From Ulva prolifera (lineage: Eukaryota; Chlorophyta; Ulvophyceae; Ulvales; Ulvaceae): a stretch of DNA of 64,000 nucleotides. Every line of letters starts with the position of its first letter. Position 1 is the first letter of the stretch. Of this stretch, positions 1,771 to 28,288 are shown piece after piece. Location: the NCBI GenBank assembly GCA_023078555.1, contig CM041197.1, positions 3,457,999 through 3,521,998 on the forward strand, given 5' to 3'. Made by a program: the position numbers and the translations under genes. The notes under the pieces are model-generated. The model worked only from the letters and a program-made list of their open reading frames with translations, was not told where the DNA came from and did no database searches.

Positions 1771-2318
1771 TGTGAAAGAACACAGCTGCTGTGAGTGTAT
1801 CTCCCTCTAGAGTACTCACTGATGCATGCAGCCTGTGTTTAACTCCAATAGACAAGATTACAGAGGTATACACTAAGTAGAAGTATACCTGTGAAAGAAC
1901 ACAGCTGCTGTGAGTGTCTCCCTCTAGAGTACTCACAGATTCATGCAGCCTGCATTCAACATGCTGAGTTATACCAACTCAGCAGACTATGTGTCCACAA
2001 GCACAAACCAACCACATATCCATGCATGTCAGCTAGAGGACACCATACCTGTGTTTAACTCCAATAGACAAGATGTCCTACTGGAGTCAACACAAGGCTT
2101 ATATGCAAACAAGCACACAGACACATAATGTCTACCTATGTGCAAAACAACAAACGCTCCCGCTTTCTGAGTCCCTTTATCTCAGGGATCGCGTCGAGCA
2201 CGTGTACAGCAACCATGCGTACAACCACCTCTTGATATGCTAGCTTCTAGCTCCCTCACACAGCAGTCTCCTATTGAGCCATGCTTATGATTCTCCTGAA
2301 ACTCCTGGTTTCACCACA
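1771..2318 (-). repeat. 3' LTR of the copia element
   Basis: 548 bp, beginning tgtgaaagaa and ending tttcaccaca on the plus strand. It matches the copy at 5432-5979 base for base as far as I can read. It contains an internal duplication offset by 119 bp (from 1771 and from 1890), sharing the gtgaaagaacacagctgctg block, and two copies of an actccaatagacaagat block. Confidence 0.93.
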
Positions 2319-2332
2319 GCCCCCCTGAATCA

Positions 2333-5300
2333 TCAGACTGATTCAATCTGAGAGATCTGCATTCCCAGCGCCTTTGCTCCAGCCTCCTGCTTCGGGCCTG
2401 GAAGCGCCTTGGTGAGGATGTCAGCCTTCATCTCCTCTGTCTTGACAAACACTGCTTCAATGTCTCCTTGCATCACACGGTGGCGGACAAAATGAAACGC
2501 AATGTCTATGTGCTTTGTCCTACCAGCTGCTCCTGGAGTATGCTGCTTCATCAAAACAAGGGCGGACTGGTTGTCCCCATACATTCGAATACGCTGCATC
2601 TGCCCACTCAGCTCAGCCATGAGCTTGCGAACCCACAACACCTCCTTCACCGCTGCAGCTGCTGCCATATACTCAGCCTCACATGTTGAGCAAGCTACCA
2701 CAGTCTGCAACTTGGATTTCCAGACCACAGGACCACCATGCATGAGTACAACTGCACCTGAGGTGCTCTTTCTAGAGTCAGATTCACCAACGTAATCAGC
2801 ATCTCTGTATGCCTCTACAACGGGCATACCACGCTGATACACAATGCCCCTATCAAGCGTACCAGCAATGTACCGCAGCACACGCTTGGCAGCTTTCCAA
2901 TGCACATCAGTTGCAGTTGCCACAAAACGACTCAGTACACCACATGCATATGCAAGATCAGGCCGAGTGTTCACAGTCAGATACAGCAAGGACCCAACAA
3001 GCTCAGCGTATGGAGTCTCATCACCGAGAGGAGTGCCTTCATGTCGCCCCAGATGTGTGTTTGCCTCCAGCGGTGTGGTGACCGCTTTGCTGTCAGACAT
3101 GCCGAAACGCTCCAGCACATCACGGGCATACTTCGGCTGACCCAACCAGATCTGCCCTAGCTCACGGTCCCTCCGAAGCTGCAGACCCAGGAAGTAGGTG
3201 ACCTTCCCGATGTCCTTGATCTCAAAGGCGCCGGCGATTGCCGCCAAGGCTGCCTGAACCATCTGCTTCCTGCCGATGATTATACCGTCGTCCACGTAGA
3301 TTAGAATGTAGACTCGCCGCTGCCCTTCACCTTTGTAGAACATGCATGGGTCCGACTCCGATGCAGTGAATCCGAGACGGGTGAGCTCGCTTAGCAGCGT
3401 GGCGTGCCAGGCACGCGCAGCCTTCTTCAGCCCATACAGAGCTTTCCGCAGTCTGTATGTGCGGCCGCCGAATGCCTCCGGCATCCGAACGTACACCTCG
3501 TCGGTCGGGTCAAGCTCCCCATTCAGGAAAGCTGTTGCCACATCAAACTGATGCAGCTCAAAATCATGCTCCGCAGCGTGTGCGAGCATGACTCGAAATG
3601 TCGCTTGCTGAGCAGTGGGAGCAAAAACTTCTTCGAAGTCCATGCCCTTGCGCTGCAAGCACCCCAGCACCACCAGCCGGGTCTTGTACTTGTCAACTGC
3701 TCCAAACGCATCGCGCTTGATTTTGTAGACTGGTTTCATCGGCAGAACCCTCTTTCCCATTGGTACTTCAGTCACGAGGTCCAGAACCCCCTTCTCAATG
3801 ATGGATGCCCACTCTGCCTCCATGGATGCACGCCAGAGCTCCGCATCAGGTCGGCCAAGCGCCTCCGCAGTCGTCTTCGGTTCATCTGTCAGCCCGTCCG
3901 CAGCGTACGCATACGCATGGGGTTGAAATGCATCAGGTGCACGCCGCTCCCGTCTGGGGTACCTGTGTGCTGGTATCTCTTCTACGGGTGGCGCGCCCGC
4001 ATCACCGTCATTGTCGGGGTCTTCACCACCATCGGCGTTGCCGTCATCACCAGCATCACCACCGCCATCGTCGCCAGCATCTTCATTGCCGTCATCACCA
4101 GCATCGTCGTCGGAGTCTTCACCGTCCGAGTCCTCGGCATCACTGGCAGCTTCCAGTGGTGGCATGTCCGCATACATGTCTGGCTCTCCAAGATCAGGAG
4201 TCATCAGGTCTTCATCGGACTCTGAGCCCACCGGCTCTGCATACGCGGGCATCATCTCGCAGTTCATTTCATACACACGCCCACGCTTCCGTCCTGTGAG
4301 GATGATGCCTCCTTTAGCGTCCATGATCTGACATCTGTCACCCTTCTGGGTGCACTCATGAGCTGCTTCAGTTGCCAGGAACCCTGATAGAAGGTTCACT
4401 GTCATGCTCGGTACCCATAGCACCGAACGCAGCAGCACCAGGCCCGCTGGGCCTCCATCCAGCCACACTTCTCCTTCTCCCATCACATCGTGGCACTCAC
4501 CACCTCCCAGAACCACTCGCTTGGTGCTGCTAGGTCTCATGTCACGAATCACATTGCGATTGTGTACAATGTGGTGAGAAGATCCGCTGTCGTAGAGCAG
4601 AGCATCAGTGCTTGCCCCGGCGGCCATTGCCATCCCCTCGGATGGATGTGCAGCTTGTGCAACCATTGCTGCTGCTGGCCGCGGGCGATCCTCAGGCTTC
4701 ACCTTCGGTTGCCGACAGTCCTTCTGGATGTGGCCTACCTTCCCGCAGTTGAAACATTTCCGCGTCTCTTTCCGCTTCTTCTGGCCCTCGGCGTTCATCG
4801 CCTTGCCATCTCTGTTCCCAGCACTCTGCTGAGAACTCTCCACCAGTCTGACGGCAGCCTTCAGCTCCTTCATGACCTGGTTGAAGCCTGCGCTCACATG
4901 CTGTGTAAGCATCATGACCAGGGAGCCCCTCTCTGGAGCCTCCTTTAGTCCACGCACGAGCGCATTCGCGGCCAGCTGATCCGCTGCCGCGAAGTCGGTG
5001 TCTTGAAGCTTCTCAAGAACCTCAAGCACCCTCTCTGCATACCGCGTGTATGCCTCCGATGAGCCTTGCCGAATGTCATTCAGCTCGCTCACCAAGAGCG
5101 GTTGCCGAAGCTCCTGCTCCGCCTCGTATTCAGCACGCACTTGCTGCCACGCCGCCATGGTGGTGGCTGCACGGTCAATGATGCGCGCCAGACCTCTGTC
5201 TTCAACGCAGAGCAGCATCCTGCTCCGGACCTTCGCGTCCGCCATCACTTCCTGTTGTGCAGCCATGTCTGGCTCCTCTGTGAGCCAGCCCTCCACTCCC

Positions 5301-5404
5301 ATAGTAGTCAAGGATGCCCGGAACTGTGCAGCCCACAGCCGGTAGTCCCCACCCCGCTTCAGCTTGCGGACGGCATGGAGAGTGCTGCTTCGTTGATCTT
5401 CCAT
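2333..5404 (-). CDS. Copia Gag-Pol polyprotein (fossil retrotransposon ORF)
   Basis: A single frame of about 1023 codons from the ATG at 5404. In order it carries: an N-terminal Gag region; a CCHC zinc knuckle (CFNCGKVGHIQKDC, about residue 220); a protease-type DSGSSHHIV motif; an acidic Asp/Gly/Glu-rich low-complexity linker; a copia-type reverse transcriptase with a YVDD catalytic motif (IYVDDGIIIG); and a C-terminal RNase H ending near TKHIDIAFHFVRH. The polyprotein is shorter than most copia polyproteins, which usually exceed 1300 residues, so it looks incomplete although the frame is open throughout. Transcription would start in the LTR at 5432-5979. Confidence 0.9.
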   Translation of the reverse strand: MEDQRSSTLHAVRKLKRGGDYRLWAAQFRASLTTMGVEGWLTEEPDMAAQQEVMADAKVRSRMLLCVEDRGLARIIDRAATTMAAWQQVRAEYEAEQELRQPLLVSELNDIRQGSSEAYTRYAERVLEVLEKLQDTDFAAADQLAANALVRGLKEAPERGSLVMMLTQHVSAGFNQVMKELKAAVRLVESSQQSAGNRDGKAMNAEGQKKRKETRKCFNCGKVGHIQKDCRQPKVKPEDRPRPAAAMVAQAAHPSEGMAMAAGASTDALLYDSGSSHHIVHNRNVIRDMRPSSTKRVVLGGGECHDVMGEGEVWLDGGPAGLVLLRSVLWVPSMTVNLLSGFLATEAAHECTQKGDRCQIMDAKGGIILTGRKRGRVYEMNCEMMPAYAEPVGSESDEDLMTPDLGEPDMYADMPPLEAASDAEDSDGEDSDDDAGDDGNEDAGDDGGGDAGDDGNADGGEDPDNDGDAGAPPVEEIPAHRYPRRERRAPDAFQPHAYAYAADGLTDEPKTTAEALGRPDAELWRASMEAEWASIIEKGVLDLVTEVPMGKRVLPMKPVYKIKRDAFGAVDKYKTRLVVLGCLQRKGMDFEEVFAPTAQQATFRVMLAHAAEHDFELHQFDVATAFLNGELDPTDEVYVRMPEAFGGRTYRLRKALYGLKKAARAWHATLLSELTRLGFTASESDPCMFYKGEGQRRVYILIYVDDGIIIGRKQMVQAALAAIAGAFEIKDIGKVTYFLGLQLRRDRELGQIWLGQPKYARDVLERFGMSDSKAVTTPLEANTHLGRHEGTPLGDETPYAELVGSLLYLTVNTRPDLAYACGVLSRFVATATDVHWKAAKRVLRYIAGTLDRGIVYQRGMPVVEAYRDADYVGESDSRKSTSGAVVLMHGGPVVWKSKLQTVVACSTCEAEYMAAAAAVKEVLWVRKLMAELSGQMQRIRMYGDNQSALVLMKQHTPGAAGRTKHIDIAFHFVRHRVMQGDIEAVFVKTEEMKADILTKALPGPKQEAGAKALGMQISQIESV

Positions 5405-5419
5405 TGCGCTTAACACAAT

Positions 5420-5431
5420 GAGCCCATAACC
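5420..5431 (-). other. Primer-binding site, initiator tRNA-Met type
   Basis: Directly after the 5' LTR the minus strand reads GGTTATGGGCTC. This is complementary, with one difference, to the anticodon arm of eukaryotic initiator tRNA-Met (GGGCCCAUAACC). Priming from an internal tRNA half-molecule is the mode known for Drosophila copia, rather than the tRNA 3' end used by most plant copia elements. Confidence 0.75.
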
Positions 5432-5979
5432 TGTGAAAGAACACAGCTGCTGTGAGTGTATCTCCCTCTAGAGTACTCACTGATGCATGCAGCCTGTGTT
5501 TAACTCCAATAGACAAGATTACAGAGGTATACACTAAGTAGAAGTATACCTGTGAAAGAACACAGCTGCTGTGAGTGTCTCCCTCTAGAGTACTCACAGA
5601 TTCATGCAGCCTGCATTCAACATGCTGAGTTATACCAACTCAGCAGACTATGTGTCCACAAGCACAAACCAACCACATATCCATGCATGTCAGCTAGAGG
5701 ACACCATACCTGTGTTTAACTCCAATAGACAAGATGTCCTACTGGAGTCAACACAAGGCTTATATGCAAACAAGCACACAGACACATAATGTCTACCTAT
5801 GTGCAAAACAACAAACGCTCCCGCTTTCTGAGTCCCTTTATCTCAGGGATCGCGTCGAGCACGTGTACAGCAACCATGCGTACAACCACCTCTTGATATG
5901 CTAGCTTCTAGCTCCCTCACACAGCAGTCTCCTATTGAGCCATGCTTATGATTCTCCTGAAACTCCTGGTTTCACCACA
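5432..5979 (-). repeat. 5' LTR of the copia element
   Basis: 548-bp terminal repeat with the same sequence as 1771-2318. The target-duplicated bases gaagg follow at 5980-5984, and the OPR exon resumes at once in its TGGTGGGCC (Trp-Trp-Ala) codons. Confidence 0.93.
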
Positions 5980-8308: not shown

Positions 8309-10139
8309 CACTACAAGAATGACTTTTGCAGGAACAGGCCACCGGAACACTATTTTGGGAGCTGTTCCGGTGGCACAATGCCGTGTTCAGCGACTCTCAA
8401 ACAAAGTGTGGGAAATTAGCTTTGCAGTGGTGTCGGCGTGAGAACATCGTTCGAGGTTGTTGTAGTGGTATGCTGCACGCCCGCATGATTTCGCGGCGCG
8501 CACTGACGCTTACACGTCAGTGCACGCGCGTGTTCTCGTGTGCATGTAAGCCAGTCACGAAGTTTTCATACCACGCCGAACTCCACTGCCGTGAAGAGTA
8601 AAACGGGCGGACAAATGGATGAATTTCGAGTGTTTGTACGCTTGTTGTCGTTCTTTCCGAGCCCGTGTGCGTTCAGCACCAGGTGCGGGTAGGCTGCCTG
8701 TCTCAGCGCGGGCTCGTCATGCGACTGGCACAGGTCGACTTTCGTGACGCGATATTTTAGCTTTAAGGTTATTTGTGTTGTTTCGGTGTCGCTGTGACTC
8801 AACGGTAGCATGTTCCGTGTCGGGCGCCCGGATGAAGCAGAGATGCGTCGTACTCGCATCGTGCGCTACACCACACCATTTAGACGTGTCCACACTTACT
8901 CGCGCCCAGTGGCCCAAATTAAATGCGTGAAGGTGCATGGGCTTGCCTGAGTTGCTCACAATGCATCGATACGATGTACCGAGTGTCAGTGTACGAGGGC
9001 ACCGGTGCTGTAGTGCAGCTTGTGCGTGGTGATGAGAAGGTCTGGCGACCGATCATTCTCCGCGCTGATCATTGAAGTTGCCTACTGAGTGTTTGCGGCT
9101 GTGTTTCGGAGCACTTCTGTATGTTGCCAGCCTGGCGTGGCCGTGATCGTGTGATCAGTTGGCTGTCCGTTGTCACGGGGCGGACGCCGTTCCACCAGCC
9201 CAGCCGTGCAGCGACTCAATGCAAAACAATATAACTGACATATACTGCTATTTTCACCCGTCCTGGGGCTCTAATTCGCGTGCTTCTTTGGTTCCGCCGG
9301 GCCCGGAACAGCCAATCTGGGGTAGAGATTTAGAGTGTTTGGGGGTATGGCATGTTCCGGCGATGCTTGTGGACACGCAGGCGAACACGCAGGCGATCAC
9401 ACAGGAACGATGTATCACATAATGTACACCGAGTAAGCAACATTACATCACTGACAACCTTACGAGCGTCGCAGAATGCGTGCGTCTCATCACACGGTCC
9501 TGCCTCTCCTTGGGCAGTGCTCTCACGTTGCACAGCGCCCCGAGCATCCATATTGCGAACCACAAATTAAACTATGTCAACATCGAAAGTCGGGCTTCGG
9601 TTTTTGCTTGACTTCTGCGTTTAATTGATTGGCGTGCTGGTGCTCGTATTGGGACCCCGTTCATCGTGTAAGTGATGGCTGTTCCCTGCAAGCTATATAC
9701 CTTGAGAAGTAAATCAGCCAGCACAGCAAGGGTCAAAAAGCTGGCCTCTGTGCAGAGAGGCTGAAACTCGATCTATTGAGACATGTGCTCACCTTGTACA
9801 GCTTGTGTGAGTTCAATCATGACTGCATCTGTGAGAGCAGCCCTCAATCATGACTGCATTTGTGAAATAGGGCAGTGCCTCACTCGTTGCTGTACTGTTG
9901 TAGAAGCCGCACATGTGTGGGCGCTAGAATGAGTGTTGGACACCTGTACACATCAGCATGAGTGAAATAGCATCCTGGTCCTGTAGCTAAGTTGCTGCTC
10001 CTCGTGGTACAGCTTCAAGTTGCTGCGGAGGCAGTTGCTAGATCTCTTGTTTATGGAGGCATACCTATGCGAGAGTAGCAGCAGCGTCATTGTGTCTTGA
10101 GAAGGCAAAGCTAAATTCTCGTCCCTCTTGCACTCTTGA

Positions 10140-10428
10140 TGTTGTGGGATATCCATATCTGGGGATCCAAGAATATAGATGACATAATCAAGGGAGGAGT
10201 CATCTAACAAAGGACTCGTTGCTTCAGGTGAGCCCCAGTGGTTAGAGCATGTCGTGTGTACTCTAGAGGTCACCGGTTCAATTCTTACTTTCATTTCTGC
10301 CGCGCGACTTTACGCGATGGCAAGGTACGCTCCCCTCCACGTCGTCATGCACAGTCAGCATGCTTACCAGCTCAGGCACGCGCATTAACCCCTGTGCACA
10401 CTCGATGAGACTAACACGCGTCTTGACA
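10140..10428 (+). repeat. Left LTR of the TRIM
   Basis: 289 bp. It contains an A-box-like tgagccccagtgg (10229-10241) and a B-box-like ggttcaattct (10275-10285), 46 bp apart start to start, the spacing seen in tRNA genes. The segment agtggttagagc is a typical tRNA D-arm. The acceptor and T stems do not pair, so it is not a working tRNA gene. Confidence 0.85.
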
Positions 10429-10701
10429 GGTATCGGTGAGCAGACTTCGTAATCTGCCTTACAGCTTCCATCTTCCTTACACCTTCCGCTGTGTGAGCTC
10501 CTCCCGAGCGATCGCATCCCAGTCAACATAGCTCTCGAGCTTAAGGGAGTCCCAGTTATATGAGTTCGGTTACAGCGGGTTGGGCCCCCGTGGACTCGGG
10601 ACGCGAAGAGAAGGTTCCAACATTCCATCAGGAGTATCGAAGATATCCCACAGTTATCAGATCTGGATCTCCCTACGCTCGATCCTCGTTAAGGGGGGAA
10701 G

Positions 10702-10990
10702 TGTTGTGGGATATCCATATCTGGGGATCCAAGAATATAGATGACATAATCAAGGGAGGAGTCATCTAACAAAGGACTCGTTGCTTCAGGTGAGCCCCAG
10801 TGGTTAGAGCATGTCGTGTGTACTCTAGAGGTCACCGGTTCAATTCTTACTTTCATTTCTGCCGCGCGACTTTACGCGATGGCAAGGTACGCTCCCCTCC
10901 ACGTCGTCATGCACAGTCAGCATGCTTACCAGCTCAGGCACGCGCATTAACCCCTGTGCACACTCGATGAGACTAACACGCGTCTTGACA
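10702..10990 (+). repeat. Right LTR of the TRIM
   Basis: 289 bp, reading the same as 10140-10428. The tRNA-like boxes fall at 10791-10803 and 10837-10847. It is followed at once by the cttga target duplication. Confidence 0.88.
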
Positions 10991-12239
10991 CTTGAATATG
11001 ATGAGGTAATCTGATCTCTCCGACATCTTTGAAAGACTGCAGGAGCTCTCTCAGCTCGCATTCTTGCAAGAGATCATTGCAAGGAGAAGAGCTGGGCAAC
11101 CGCACACCTCCAAAAAGCATCTGTTCTGAACATGTGTCATGGCGACTCGATGTTAAATAGACATGTCCGTCCCATGTAGCTTGTCATGCTGAGGCGGACG
11201 TCTGTTCTTGAAAACGGATCGGTGCGATACCACATTGCGACAATTAATGTGAGCGTCGATAAGGCCAAACCAGCTTCGGATACTCGAGATCAATCCACAG
11301 CTCAACATCTCGTAAGTTAACGTGGTGGTGGCCCGACTGTTCGCGGGATGGGAAGTTGCATTGGTGCTGAAAAGTCAACACAGGCCTCGGAGCAAACGGA
11401 CATGTGAACGCAGCATGTACACATTGCCTGGCCAAGTCGTTTATCATATGTTATGCTCGAATTTGGTTTTCCGCCGATGTGCAGCATCTCCAGCGTTGCA
11501 ATTCCCGAGGTAGAAGGCATAGACGCAGTGCAGTATCATGCAGGTGTCGACAAGGCCCCACGGGACGGACTGGCCATCATGATGCATCAGCTGTGACATG
11601 CAACGAGACGTCCAGGGAAGGACTTCCAGGGGATGTGAATGACACATCACCTACGCTCGTATGCACAGCCTGAAAAGTTTCGCCAGGTTGGCCACGCGAG
11701 ACGCAGACATGGCGACCCAGACTGGCCACGCGCACAGTTTCGCAAATGGCGACATGGCCACCACTAGATAATACATCAAGATGTCTTAAGAATTCTTGTG
11801 CCACGTATGAGTGCTGTACCGCAAAATCTATAAAGTCTACACCGCGTCACTGCGTCGACAGACCGCTGCTGGGCACGTTGCCCTGCAATTGTAGTCACAC
11901 CATCGGTCTTAGTGCAGTCGATCTGATAACAGCTGCATAATTATATGGCAGGTAGGACATTCATGGGCAGCTGGGTCCACAAAGCCAGCGGTTTCGCTCA
12001 CGATGATCGTTCCCCGGAGCGCGTGTTCCGGACCGCTATGGCCGGTGTTCCTGGCAGGTTGGTGCACATACCGGATCAAGTATACCGGAACAGTTGATTG
12101 TTCTTGTTCCGGGACACCTGGGTGCCAGCTCTGATCCACGATCCCCGGAACAAGCACCTGGGACAACCAGACGGCAACGTTCCGGTACGCAGCCAGCTAC
12201 CGGACCATGTTCCGGGTCAAAGTCGTTCTTGTAGTGTAG

Positions 12240-25358: not shown

Positions 25359-28288
25359 TCAAGTCACGCCTCGCGCCCGCAGCTCCCGCAGCAGCCACGC
25401 TGTGTGCTGCGCGCTGCGCAGCTCAGCAGGCGACTTGTCCATCACCGGCACGCTGAGCACGGCATACCCCCACCCGCGCAGCTGCCAGTTGCGCAGGGCG
25501 GTGGCCCCCGTCTCGCGCACGGCCCGCCCGGCGGCGTCCTTCACGTAGTGGGAGGGCCCGTCCACCTCCACGGCGATGCGCACGCCGCGGCCCTGCAGCA
25601 GGATGTCGACCAGCCTCGAGCCGTCGCCAACCACCACCTGCACACAACGGCCCATTCGCCTACGCAAAATCCGAATGTGTCCGTATATGCAGCGCGCTCT
25701 CCATATGTGGCACAGCGGGGGTGGAAGGGTCAGATCGCACATGCATGGCACATATGCATTGGCACAGAGGAGCCTTTGTGCGTCTCGAACCAAGACGCAG
25801 CCTTCCTGCTTGCTGACAGCCCCTTGACATTCCCAAACATGGCTCAGTTACTTGTGAGTCAGTTTCGCAGAATCAGATGCTGCGGGGCTACAGCAGATCC
25901 GCTGCCGCACCTCGGGCATGATGCTGAGCTCGGACACCTCTGGCAGGCCCCGGAGCGCTTCAAGAACCGCCGCATGCAGAGCACCGATGGATGCCTCCGG
26001 GCCAGACTCTGCTTCATCGAGCGCCCGGTTAGCCACACGTTGGATGGTGGCCGCCTTGCAGTCCTGCAGGAGGAGCAGACCTTGTTTAGCCAGGCGCCGC
26101 TCTAGCCCAAGGACATCAGACACCATATGCACCTGCAGCCACTGAGTTTCCATTTTCACAACAACTCTTGCACCCTGTTCTATGGTTGTCGCTGGGCCCT
26201 GCCTTCTGAAGCGTGTGCAGACACAGATACAGGCGCAGATAGACATGGACATATATGCAGGGGCGAGTTGGGGTGCACCTGACCCTGCTCTTCAGGTGAA
26301 AACACCTCGCCAGCAGTGTAAAGCTGCACAAGCCGAGCTGCCGTTTCCTCAAGTGCCTTCTCACACACAAGGGCGCGGTCCTCGGGCTGCCTCTGGAGCT
26401 GAGTCTGCACGCCAAGCGCCCACAGGATGTTGGCAGCACCCTGCGACACCATAGTTGGCGCTAGCCGGACAGTGGCGGACTGAAGTGCATCATGCGTCTC
26501 ACCAGGCACCACGAGCCCAAGCGTCGCGAATGACCACCAGATATTGGCAACGTTCTGTGGCGCCATGGCCGGAGCTAGCCGGACGGTGGCGGACTGAAGC
26601 GCATCATGCGTCTCAGCAGGCACCACGAGCCCAAGCGTCGCGAATGACCACCAGATATTGGCAACGTCCTGTGGCGCCATCGCCGGAGCTAGCCGGACGG
26701 TGGCGGACTGAAGTGCATCATGGGTCTCAGCAGGGACCACCAGCCCAAGCGTTGCGAATGACCACCAGATATTGGCAACGTCCTGTGGCGCCATCGCCGG
26801 AGCTAGCCGGACGGTGGCGGACTGAAGTGCATCATGGGTCTCAGCAGGGACCACCAGCCCAAGCGTCGCGAATGACCACCAGATATTGGCAACGTCCTGT
26901 GGCGCCATCGCCGGAGCTAGCCGGACGGTGGCGGACTGAAGTGCATCATGGGTCTCAGCAGGGACCACCAGCCCAAGCGTCGCAAATGACCACCAGATAT
27001 TGGCAACGCCCTGTGGCACCATGGCCGGAGCCAGCCGGATGGTGGCGGACTGAAGTGCATCATGCGTCTCAGCAGGCACCACCAGCCCAAGCGTCGCGAA
27101 TGACCACCAGGTATTGGCAACGCCCTGTGGCACCATGGCCGGAGCCAGCCGGATGGTGGCAGACTGAAGTGCATCATGCGTCTCAGCAGGCACCACCAGC
27201 CCAAGCGTTGCGAATGACCACCAGATATTGGCAACGTCCTGTGACGCCATGGCCGGAGCTAGCCGGACGGTGGCGGACTGAAGTGCATCATGCGTCTCAG
27301 CAGGCACCACGAGCCCAAGCGTCGCGAATGACCACCAGATATTGGCAACGTTCTGTGGCGCCATGGCCGGAGCTAGCCGGACGGTGGCGGACTGAAGTGC
27401 ATCATGCGTCTCAGCAGGCACCACGAGCCCAAGCGTCGCGAATGACCACCAGATATTGGCAACGTCCTGTGGCACCATGGCCGGAGCCAGCCGGATGGTG
27501 GCAGACTGAAGTGCATCATGCGTCTCAGAAGGGACCACCAGCGCCAGGGCCGCAAATGACCACAAGATGTTGGACAAGTCCTGTGCATTCATCTTGGCGG
27601 GCAGCTCCTGGTCGCACTCCTGAAGAGCACGCCATATGCACTCCTGCAGTGTCAGTGATGGCCGTGGCGCGCCAAACTGTTGGTACAGCTTCGCACAGGC
27701 ATGCACAACATTGCTGAACTCCCTCGCAGGCAGGCTGCTGAAGCCGGAGCGCTCGATCCTTGACCAGAATTCGCTGCTGTACTGTCCGAGCTTCAACTGC
27801 GCGGTGGCCAGCTGCGACACATCGATGGCATTGGAGAACAAATCAGCATCTGCTGCAGCGGCGGCAAAGAGGGTGGATATGTCTTTCTGGAGATCCCGGT
27901 CGCGGCGGAGGTGCTGGCGGAGGGGCGGCTGCGCTTGGATGAATTTGCCGAGGTTGGACAGCAGGGTGGGCTTGAACTTGACTGTGTTACTACGGGTGCA
28001 GGACAGGACCCTTCTGACTGCCTGGATGCAGTCGGGAACATTGCTCTTCTGAACGAAGCCTCGAGGCAAGGCTGCGAAGCCTTGCATGCACTGACCTGGC
28101 GCACCGGGCCGCTTGGCGGTGTCGCTGTGCACTCTGCTAGCTTCCTCTAGGCACTCCTGCAGGGACCTGGTCTTCGCCTTTGCTCGATTGGCATTGGTTC
28201 TCTGACCTACATGTCCGGTGGGTGTGAGGCGGTCCAAGATGCGCGGTGCGTCCGCGAGGTGGTCGTCAGTGGCAATTTGCCACCACAT
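25359..28288 (-). CDS. OPR-RAP protein (gene B), likely organelle RNA-binding factor
   Basis: Three coding exons join in phase 0: 28288-26279, 26132-25911 and 25637-25359. The donors are CAG|GTGCAC and GAG|GTGCGG; the acceptors are GGCTGCAG and TGTGCAG. This gives 836 residues from the ATG at 28288. Residues 1-237 are an N-terminal domain shared with genes A and C. Residues 238-617 are ten 38-residue repeats of the form ANIWWSFATLGLVVPAETHD... A degenerate unit (ANILWALGVQ) follows, and a C-terminal RAP domain begins at about residue 760 (RIAVEVDGPSHYV..LRNWQLRGWGYAVLSVPV). OPR and RAP proteins are known to bind organelle transcripts and act in their stability, splicing or translation. A transit peptide may be encoded by an upstream exon at 28733. 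The frame is intact throughout. Confidence 0.85.
26438..27577 (-). repeat. Tandem array of ten 114-bp coding repeats
   Basis: Ten head-to-tail units of 114 bp, each encoding one 38-residue OPR-like repeat, with only a few differences between units. The variable positions are mainly the last residues (APQDV, APQNV, ASQDV, VPQGV). Such high DNA identity implies recent expansion or gene conversion. The long plus-strand ORF here is an antisense shadow. Confidence 0.92.

Follow-up and report, generated by a model that had tools for sequence, protein, structure and literature searches.

Terminal-repeat retrotransposons in miniature (TRIMs) with tRNA-derived sequence in their long terminal repeats (LTRs) were named Helenus by Kojima in 2024 (PMC10886601), and Helenus, Cassandra, and Ajax are grouped there as TRIMp3, the TRIMs transcribed by RNA polymerase III (Pol III). 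As far as the text of that paper goes, Helenus elements are 311 to 1263 bp in size and occur in fungi, in six animal phyla, and in Selaginella, the only plant in its Table 1. The fungal and plant families possess 5-bp target site duplications (TSDs), a box A with TRGCY is reported for most but not all families, and the use of Pol III was inferred by Kojima and not shown. TRIMs of Chlamydomonas and Volvox were reported by Gao et al. in 2016 (PMC4717578), and 5S rRNA sequence is present in no TRIM family except Cassandra in the account given there. The subject of this analysis is a TRIM at positions 10140 to 10990 of a 64,000-nucleotide stretch of Ulva prolifera DNA (contig CM041197.1, 3,457,999 to 3,521,998; “the window,” the positions of which are used throughout; the locus of the element is L040). 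Judged by its sequence, its family fits the definition of Helenus and is a new family of this published class. An earlier note on this DNA had seen in the element a tRNA parallel of Cassandra and had inferred that such a class would be new. The parallel is borne out by the copies and by an alignment with tRNA-Thr, which point to a real TRIM family with LTR sequence derived from a tRNA gene, but the class itself has already been published as Helenus/TRIMp3 (PMC10886601, in the text cited above). An algal Helenus was not found in the literature searched, with supplementary tables outside the scope of this search.

The element has a total length of 851 bp and is composed of two LTRs of 289 bp each (10140 to 10428 and 10702 to 10990, + strand, like all stranded features of the element given here), which are 100% identical and start with TG and end with CA, around an internal region of 273 bp (10429 to 10701). 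The TSD CTTGA (5 bp, not stranded) is located on either side of the element, at 10135 to 10139 and at 10991 to 10995. A primer-binding-site-like sequence, GGTATCGGTGAGC (10429 to 10441; GGTATCGATGAGC in other copies), begins directly after the 5' LTR, and the polypurine tract AAGGGGGGAAG (10691 to 10701) stops directly before the 3' LTR. No open reading frame (ORF) of at least 180 amino acids overlaps the element, in a list that started at this length. An LTR pair around a short interior without such an ORF, together with a size below about 1 to 1.3 kb, identifies the element as a TRIM. Reading of the window thus confirmed the identical LTRs, the 5-bp TSD, and the purine tract described in the earlier note, and likewise the two motifs reported there, tgagccccagtgg at 10229 and ggttcaattct at 10275, whose starts are 46 bp apart and which recur in the 3' LTR. 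The 5' LTR contains a very degenerate box A-like sequence, TGAGCCCCAGTGG (10229 to 10241), a segment that alignment to the host tRNAs assigns to tRNA-Thr(UGU) (10236 to 10282), and the box B GGTTCAATTCT (10275 to 10285). The corresponding positions in the 3' LTR are 10791 to 10803, 10798 to 10844 (identical to 10236 to 10282), and 10837 to 10847.

Further copies, which the earlier note had proposed to look for, exist in the host genome (88.9 Mb in 44 contigs) as a large family with 149 LTR 5' ends, the number of matches to the first 42 bases of the LTR at up to 3 mismatches (backward control, 0). The 24-base box A region had 108 matches and the 48-base span from box A to box B had 65, again with controls of 0. 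A total of 84 complete LTRs were extracted, which came from 12 full elements, one of them with three LTRs in tandem, from 2 copies with one complete LTR plus interior, and from 57 solo LTRs; this set excludes incomplete matches, 17 of them from L069 onward and others from earlier loci. The copies were chosen by a match to the LTR, its 5' end, the box A region, or the A-to-B span, so that counts in these parts lean towards conservation. All 12 full elements possess an interior of 273 bp and the polypurine tract, and the LTR pair is identical in 8 of them. A perfect 5-bp TSD surrounds 10 of the 12 full elements and 49 of the 57 solo LTRs. The family is large and recent, and it integrates in the manner of LTR elements. 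Several subfamilies exist, which differ mainly inside the tRNA-like part. A 27-mer from the LTR had no exact counterpart on viral contigs.

The copies are not evenly spread. The region from 3.53 to 5.02 Mb of contig C7 (1.5 Mb, less than 2% of the genome) holds 38 of the 100 box A-region matches listed (108 in all, with both LTRs of an element counted), a strong cluster that is perhaps pericentromeric or non-recombining. A tandem TRIM (L051, 1501 to 2912; C7:4650413-4651824) possesses three LTRs and two interiors within the single TSD CAGGG, and its LTRs and primer sites derive from different subfamilies. Another full element (L052; C6:6858591-6859440) is flanked by the matching TSD CCCTG and carries two LTRs of different subfamilies. 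The differences are mostly in the tRNA-like part, and conversion or recombination after insertion is likely. Two LTR copies (L032, 2973 to 3072, and L144 at C2:10552530) are located 1.2 to 1.5 kb from tRNA-Ala genes; two cases are too few for a targeting claim. Pfam returned only Sua5 and retroelement domains for ten ORFs near copies and tRNA genes.

The origin of the segment between the boxes was deduced from alignments with the host tRNAs, which were represented by 49 distinct loci of the 60 tRNA matches reported. The first run used 37 host tRNA sequences, with four of more than 76 nt (Leu, two Lys, and Thr-AGT) absent, and a repeat with the complete set of 41, in which the sequences of real copies were aligned, left the result unchanged. 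In the 37-sequence run, tRNA-Thr(UGU) was the best match for each of four forms of the LTR piece, with scores of 33, 48, 45, and 40; none of 500 shuffles reached any of these scores, and those of the window form scored 20.0 ± 2.3. In the 41-sequence run, the scores with tRNA-Thr(UGU) were 48 for L109 and L121, 45 for L068, 38 for L064, 37 for L073, and 33 for the window copy. The score of 48 compares with 19.9 ± 2.4 for the shuffles and with 26 for the best other host tRNA, and the best non-Thr tRNA for the copies reached 26 to 28. The alignment with tRNA-Thr is clearly above chance, and since real copies score up to 48, it indicates a tRNA-Thr(UGU) gene as the ancestor of the LTR piece. A chance resemblance to Pol III boxes without any tRNA ancestry is accordingly very improbable: box B-like sequences are not rare, with 30 occurrences of GWTCRANNC in the window, and the window copy alone, with its score of 33, ties with an unrelated site of the window, but the match of L109 and L121 extends over about 47 nt, including the anticodon region, and no shuffle out of 500 reached it. 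Because of this tie, the claim of a tRNA-Thr origin rests on the better-preserved subfamilies.

How the tRNA sequence entered the LTR is a separate question. A tRNA-Thr-headed short interspersed nuclear element (SINE) may have been inserted into the LTR of an older TRIM, with the SINE family surviving elsewhere in the genome, an origin that is compatible with transcription of the element by Pol III. In Kojima's proposal, Helenus arose by insertion of a SINE (PMC10886601, section 4.2), and the tRNA similarity in the LTR is restricted to the middle of the gene. In the window and in the non-tRNA loci examined, however, nothing resembling tRNA-Thr or the piece was found outside LTRs, and all 20 of 20 further loci with a box A-region match aligned to the LTR, so that this origin appears rather unlikely. 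A functional tRNA in the LTR was considered and rejected. ARAGORN identified no tRNA in the window or in 24 loci with copies, and Rfam none in the window, none in the element at E values up to 10, and none in five further loci, which indicates that the cloverleaf fold has been lost. From the scans of the LTR suggested earlier, a B box was obtained but no tRNA call.

Whether the tRNA-like piece acts as a promoter depends on the quality of its boxes. Box B has a score of 14.7 bits, within the range of 9.3 to 16.7 of 36 host tRNA genes, and the stricter pattern GGTTCRANNC has 7 occurrences in the 64 kb, both strands counted, with two of these sites being the box B copies of the element. Of the two boxes claimed before, box B is better than chance but box A is not. 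These data, with the tRNA ancestry, favor by a small degree a Helenus-type TRIM (TRIMp3) in which transcription would be started by Pol III from the tRNA-like piece of the LTR. Alternatively, the element may be an ordinary TRIM transcribed by RNA polymerase II (Pol II) from a TATA-like stretch in the LTR, in which the tRNA-Thr piece, a fragment captured from a tRNA or a SINE, is carried along without a role in the promoter. This explanation is a serious competitor, at somewhat less than an even chance. The TATA-like stretch (10173 to 10187) contains ATATA at 10173 and ATAA at 10184, which are 50 and 39 nt upstream of the tRNA-like position 1, respectively, and may serve as an upstream element for Pol III or Pol II. 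ATATA at LTR position 34 would be placed like the TATA box of a Pol II promoter. On the other hand, TATA-like stretches are also located upstream of host tRNA genes, with 4-mers of this kind starting between −40 and −26 in 14 of 30 genes versus 7.6% of random window places. The placement suits either polymerase. The genome also contains a TRIM without a tRNA match, which agrees with the Pol II explanation, whereas the sense orientation of the tRNA-like piece and the strength of box B, equal to that of host genes, disagree with it.

Several further results weigh against a Pol III promoter. The box A-like sequence scores 0.2 in its best frame, compared to 10.1 to 16.4 in the host tRNA genes, a difference that favors Pol II; it does not agree with the pattern TRGYNN(N)ARN..GG, contains an extra base, lacks TRGCY, and can be aligned with a tRNA only through a one-base gap. 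The highest-scoring A+B pair in the LTR has a value of 15.3, which 1 of 864 further 289-nt segments of the window also reaches; it remains below all 36 real tRNA pairs (23.1 to 31.8), and it uses a different A site at LTR position 81 instead of the box A-like sequence at 10229. In favor of Pol III reading through the element, it contains no TTTT, whereas four or more T residues follow within up to 60 nt downstream in 44 of the 49 distinct host tRNA loci, but their absence from the element is unremarkable, as 267 of 1,000 shuffles are also free of TTTT. After LTR position 76, TTTT is present in 7 of the 84 LTR copies.

Conservation across the copies also argues against a Pol III promoter. It was evaluated on a tree of 71 LTRs plus the reference, the window LTR from the same place as L040, after exclusion of 13 LTRs preceded by a purine tract. 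Boxes A and B together carried 7 changes on internal branches, and 74% of the same-shaped windows had as few or fewer; the corresponding numbers for the terminal branches were 61 changes and 89%, and the ratio of internal to terminal changes was unremarkable, with 30% of the windows as low or lower. Among copies diverged by at least 6% outside the piece, box B was intact in 5 of 20, compared to 45% for the average 10-nt window elsewhere, and in the less diverged classes in 24 of 27, 7 of 12, and 5 of 12 (average windows, 95%, 84%, and 68%). The faster loss of box B in old copies could reflect methylation-driven mutation of the CCGG with which it begins. The boxes are thus not better conserved than the flanking LTR, neither on the tree nor in the divergence classes, in disagreement with the expectation of the earlier note and in agreement with the Pol II explanation, and conservation as a proof of their function had to be rejected. 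This test is weak and tells little about the source copies because most copies are solo LTRs, which no longer transpose. GGTTCAATTCT and TGAGCCC[CT]AGTGG are both retained in each of the 27 LTRs next to an interior, compared to 26 and 36, respectively, of the 57 other LTRs. This retention of both boxes speaks against Pol II, although these 27 LTRs belong to young copies. Also in favor of a role of the promoter, a comparison of 13 young 5' LTRs, which omits L044 with its insertion between the boxes, showed five sites varying in more than one LTR, and four of these are located at LTR positions 97 to 126, outside box B. Of the four, however, position 97 belongs to the box A-like sequence, another is a change in the length of a T run, and the remaining two are adjacent and may represent one event. 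The most specific version of the Pol III reading would make the family the first tRNA-promoter TRIM of an alga, recently active, with source copies that keep a box B-based Pol III promoter from tRNA-Thr(UGU) while the anticodon-arm part drifts, and with Pol III reading the whole element through the 3' LTR without a T4 (TTTT) stop. In all of these parts together, it is doubtful.

If Pol III is used, the start site in the 5' LTR would lie slightly upstream of the tRNA-like piece and be set chiefly by box B, because box A is poor, and perhaps also by the TATA-like stretch. Since the element holds no T4 stop, the transcript of the window copy would cross the whole element. The RNA would be primed by a tRNA at 10429 and copied. 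Reverse transcription should still be possible, as the strong-stop copy made from the 5' LTR could pair with the 3' LTR; strand transfer needs only a 5' part of the RNA that recurs there, so that termination of Pol III within the LTR would not be necessary. An autonomous element, probably of the Copia type, would supply the proteins for integration in trans. In each of the 12 full elements, the 5' LTR is followed by GGTATCG[GA]TGAGC, which presumably resembles a primer site for the 3' end of the plant initiator tRNA. Two negative results count against this course of events. The complement of the primer site was absent among 37 host tRNA sequences, a set without the initiator tRNA, with a longest exact run of 7, and the candidate pairs examined on contigs C3 and C8 yielded no autonomous element bearing these LTRs.

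The pair C3:1860607/1870411, considered as the LTRs of a 9.8-kb autonomous partner, was rejected since it is located inside a duplicated stretch of at least 797 bp with 97.9% identity; inspection of the ORFs of at least 150 amino acids by eye, without a family search, recognized no reverse transcriptase (RT) there. Two pairs on C8, each 3 to 4 kb apart, were also discarded, with the search for RT not extended to the intervening DNA. In C8:302489/306297, the primer site follows neither LTR and the outer flanks differ; in C8:1233956/1237187, the first LTR is truncated. The TRIM without a tRNA match mentioned above (L070, 3803 to 4553) has different LTRs of 280 bp and an interior of 191 bp. It shares with the present family the kind of primer site, here GGTATCGATGAG, and of purine tract, but none of its tRNA matches exceeds a score of 24. 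The window itself contains a Copia element on the − strand (1771 to 5979) with identical direct end repeats (300 bp according to the tool, visibly longer), a TSD CCTTC identified by eye, and a single ORF of 1027 amino acids with gag, zinc knuckle, Pol_BBD, and RVT_2. Pfam found no integrase family in it at an E value of 0.001, and an acidic stretch is present at the place expected for the integrase. Its site GGTTATGGGCTCAT looks like a primer site for the anticodon region of the initiator tRNA. Also on the − strand, positions 26180 to 28288 encode a long tandem-repeat protein with a FAST_1 match and about ten near-identical repeats, a type known from organelle RNA-binding proteins of algae. 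Its sequence had no match in the PDB; together with the genome size of 88.9 Mb, the presence of such a protein would suggest an algal host.

The young, near-identical copies, the subfamilies varying in the tRNA-like part, and a TRIM without a tRNA part in the same genome make this genome well suited for a test of whether LTR retrotransposition is really driven by captured tRNA sequence. With an alga as the host, Helenus would extend beyond the single plant listed in 2024. Compared to the known systems, the element is similar to SINE2, the tRNA-derived SINEs, in carrying tRNA-derived sequence on a short non-coding retroelement, but the LTRs, the purine tract, and the fixed 5-bp TSDs distinguish it from a SINE that depends on a long interspersed nuclear element. 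It shares with Ajax the TRIMp3 concept and the 5-bp TSD, whereas Ajax has 5S rRNA sequence. As in Cassandra, sequence of a small-RNA gene that is able to supply a Pol III promoter is part of the LTR of a TRIM; differences are the tRNA sequence instead of 5S rRNA, which Rfam did not detect in the window at the gathering score or in the element at E values up to 10, and the missing T4 stop in the window copy. Helenus is the class to which the family is assigned here. Of the box A motifs of Helenus, the window element has YGG but, in place of TRGCY, GAGCC with one extra base, and the primer site of the element matches none of the host tRNAs compared. The 851 bp are within the 311 to 1263 bp given for Helenus, the 5-bp TSD is that of the fungal and plant families, the GGTTC of box B is present in 27 of 27 LTRs adjoining an interior, albeit not above the flank in old copies, and tRNA-derived sequence in the LTR of a TRIM is the feature by which Helenus is defined in the text of Kojima (PMC10886601).
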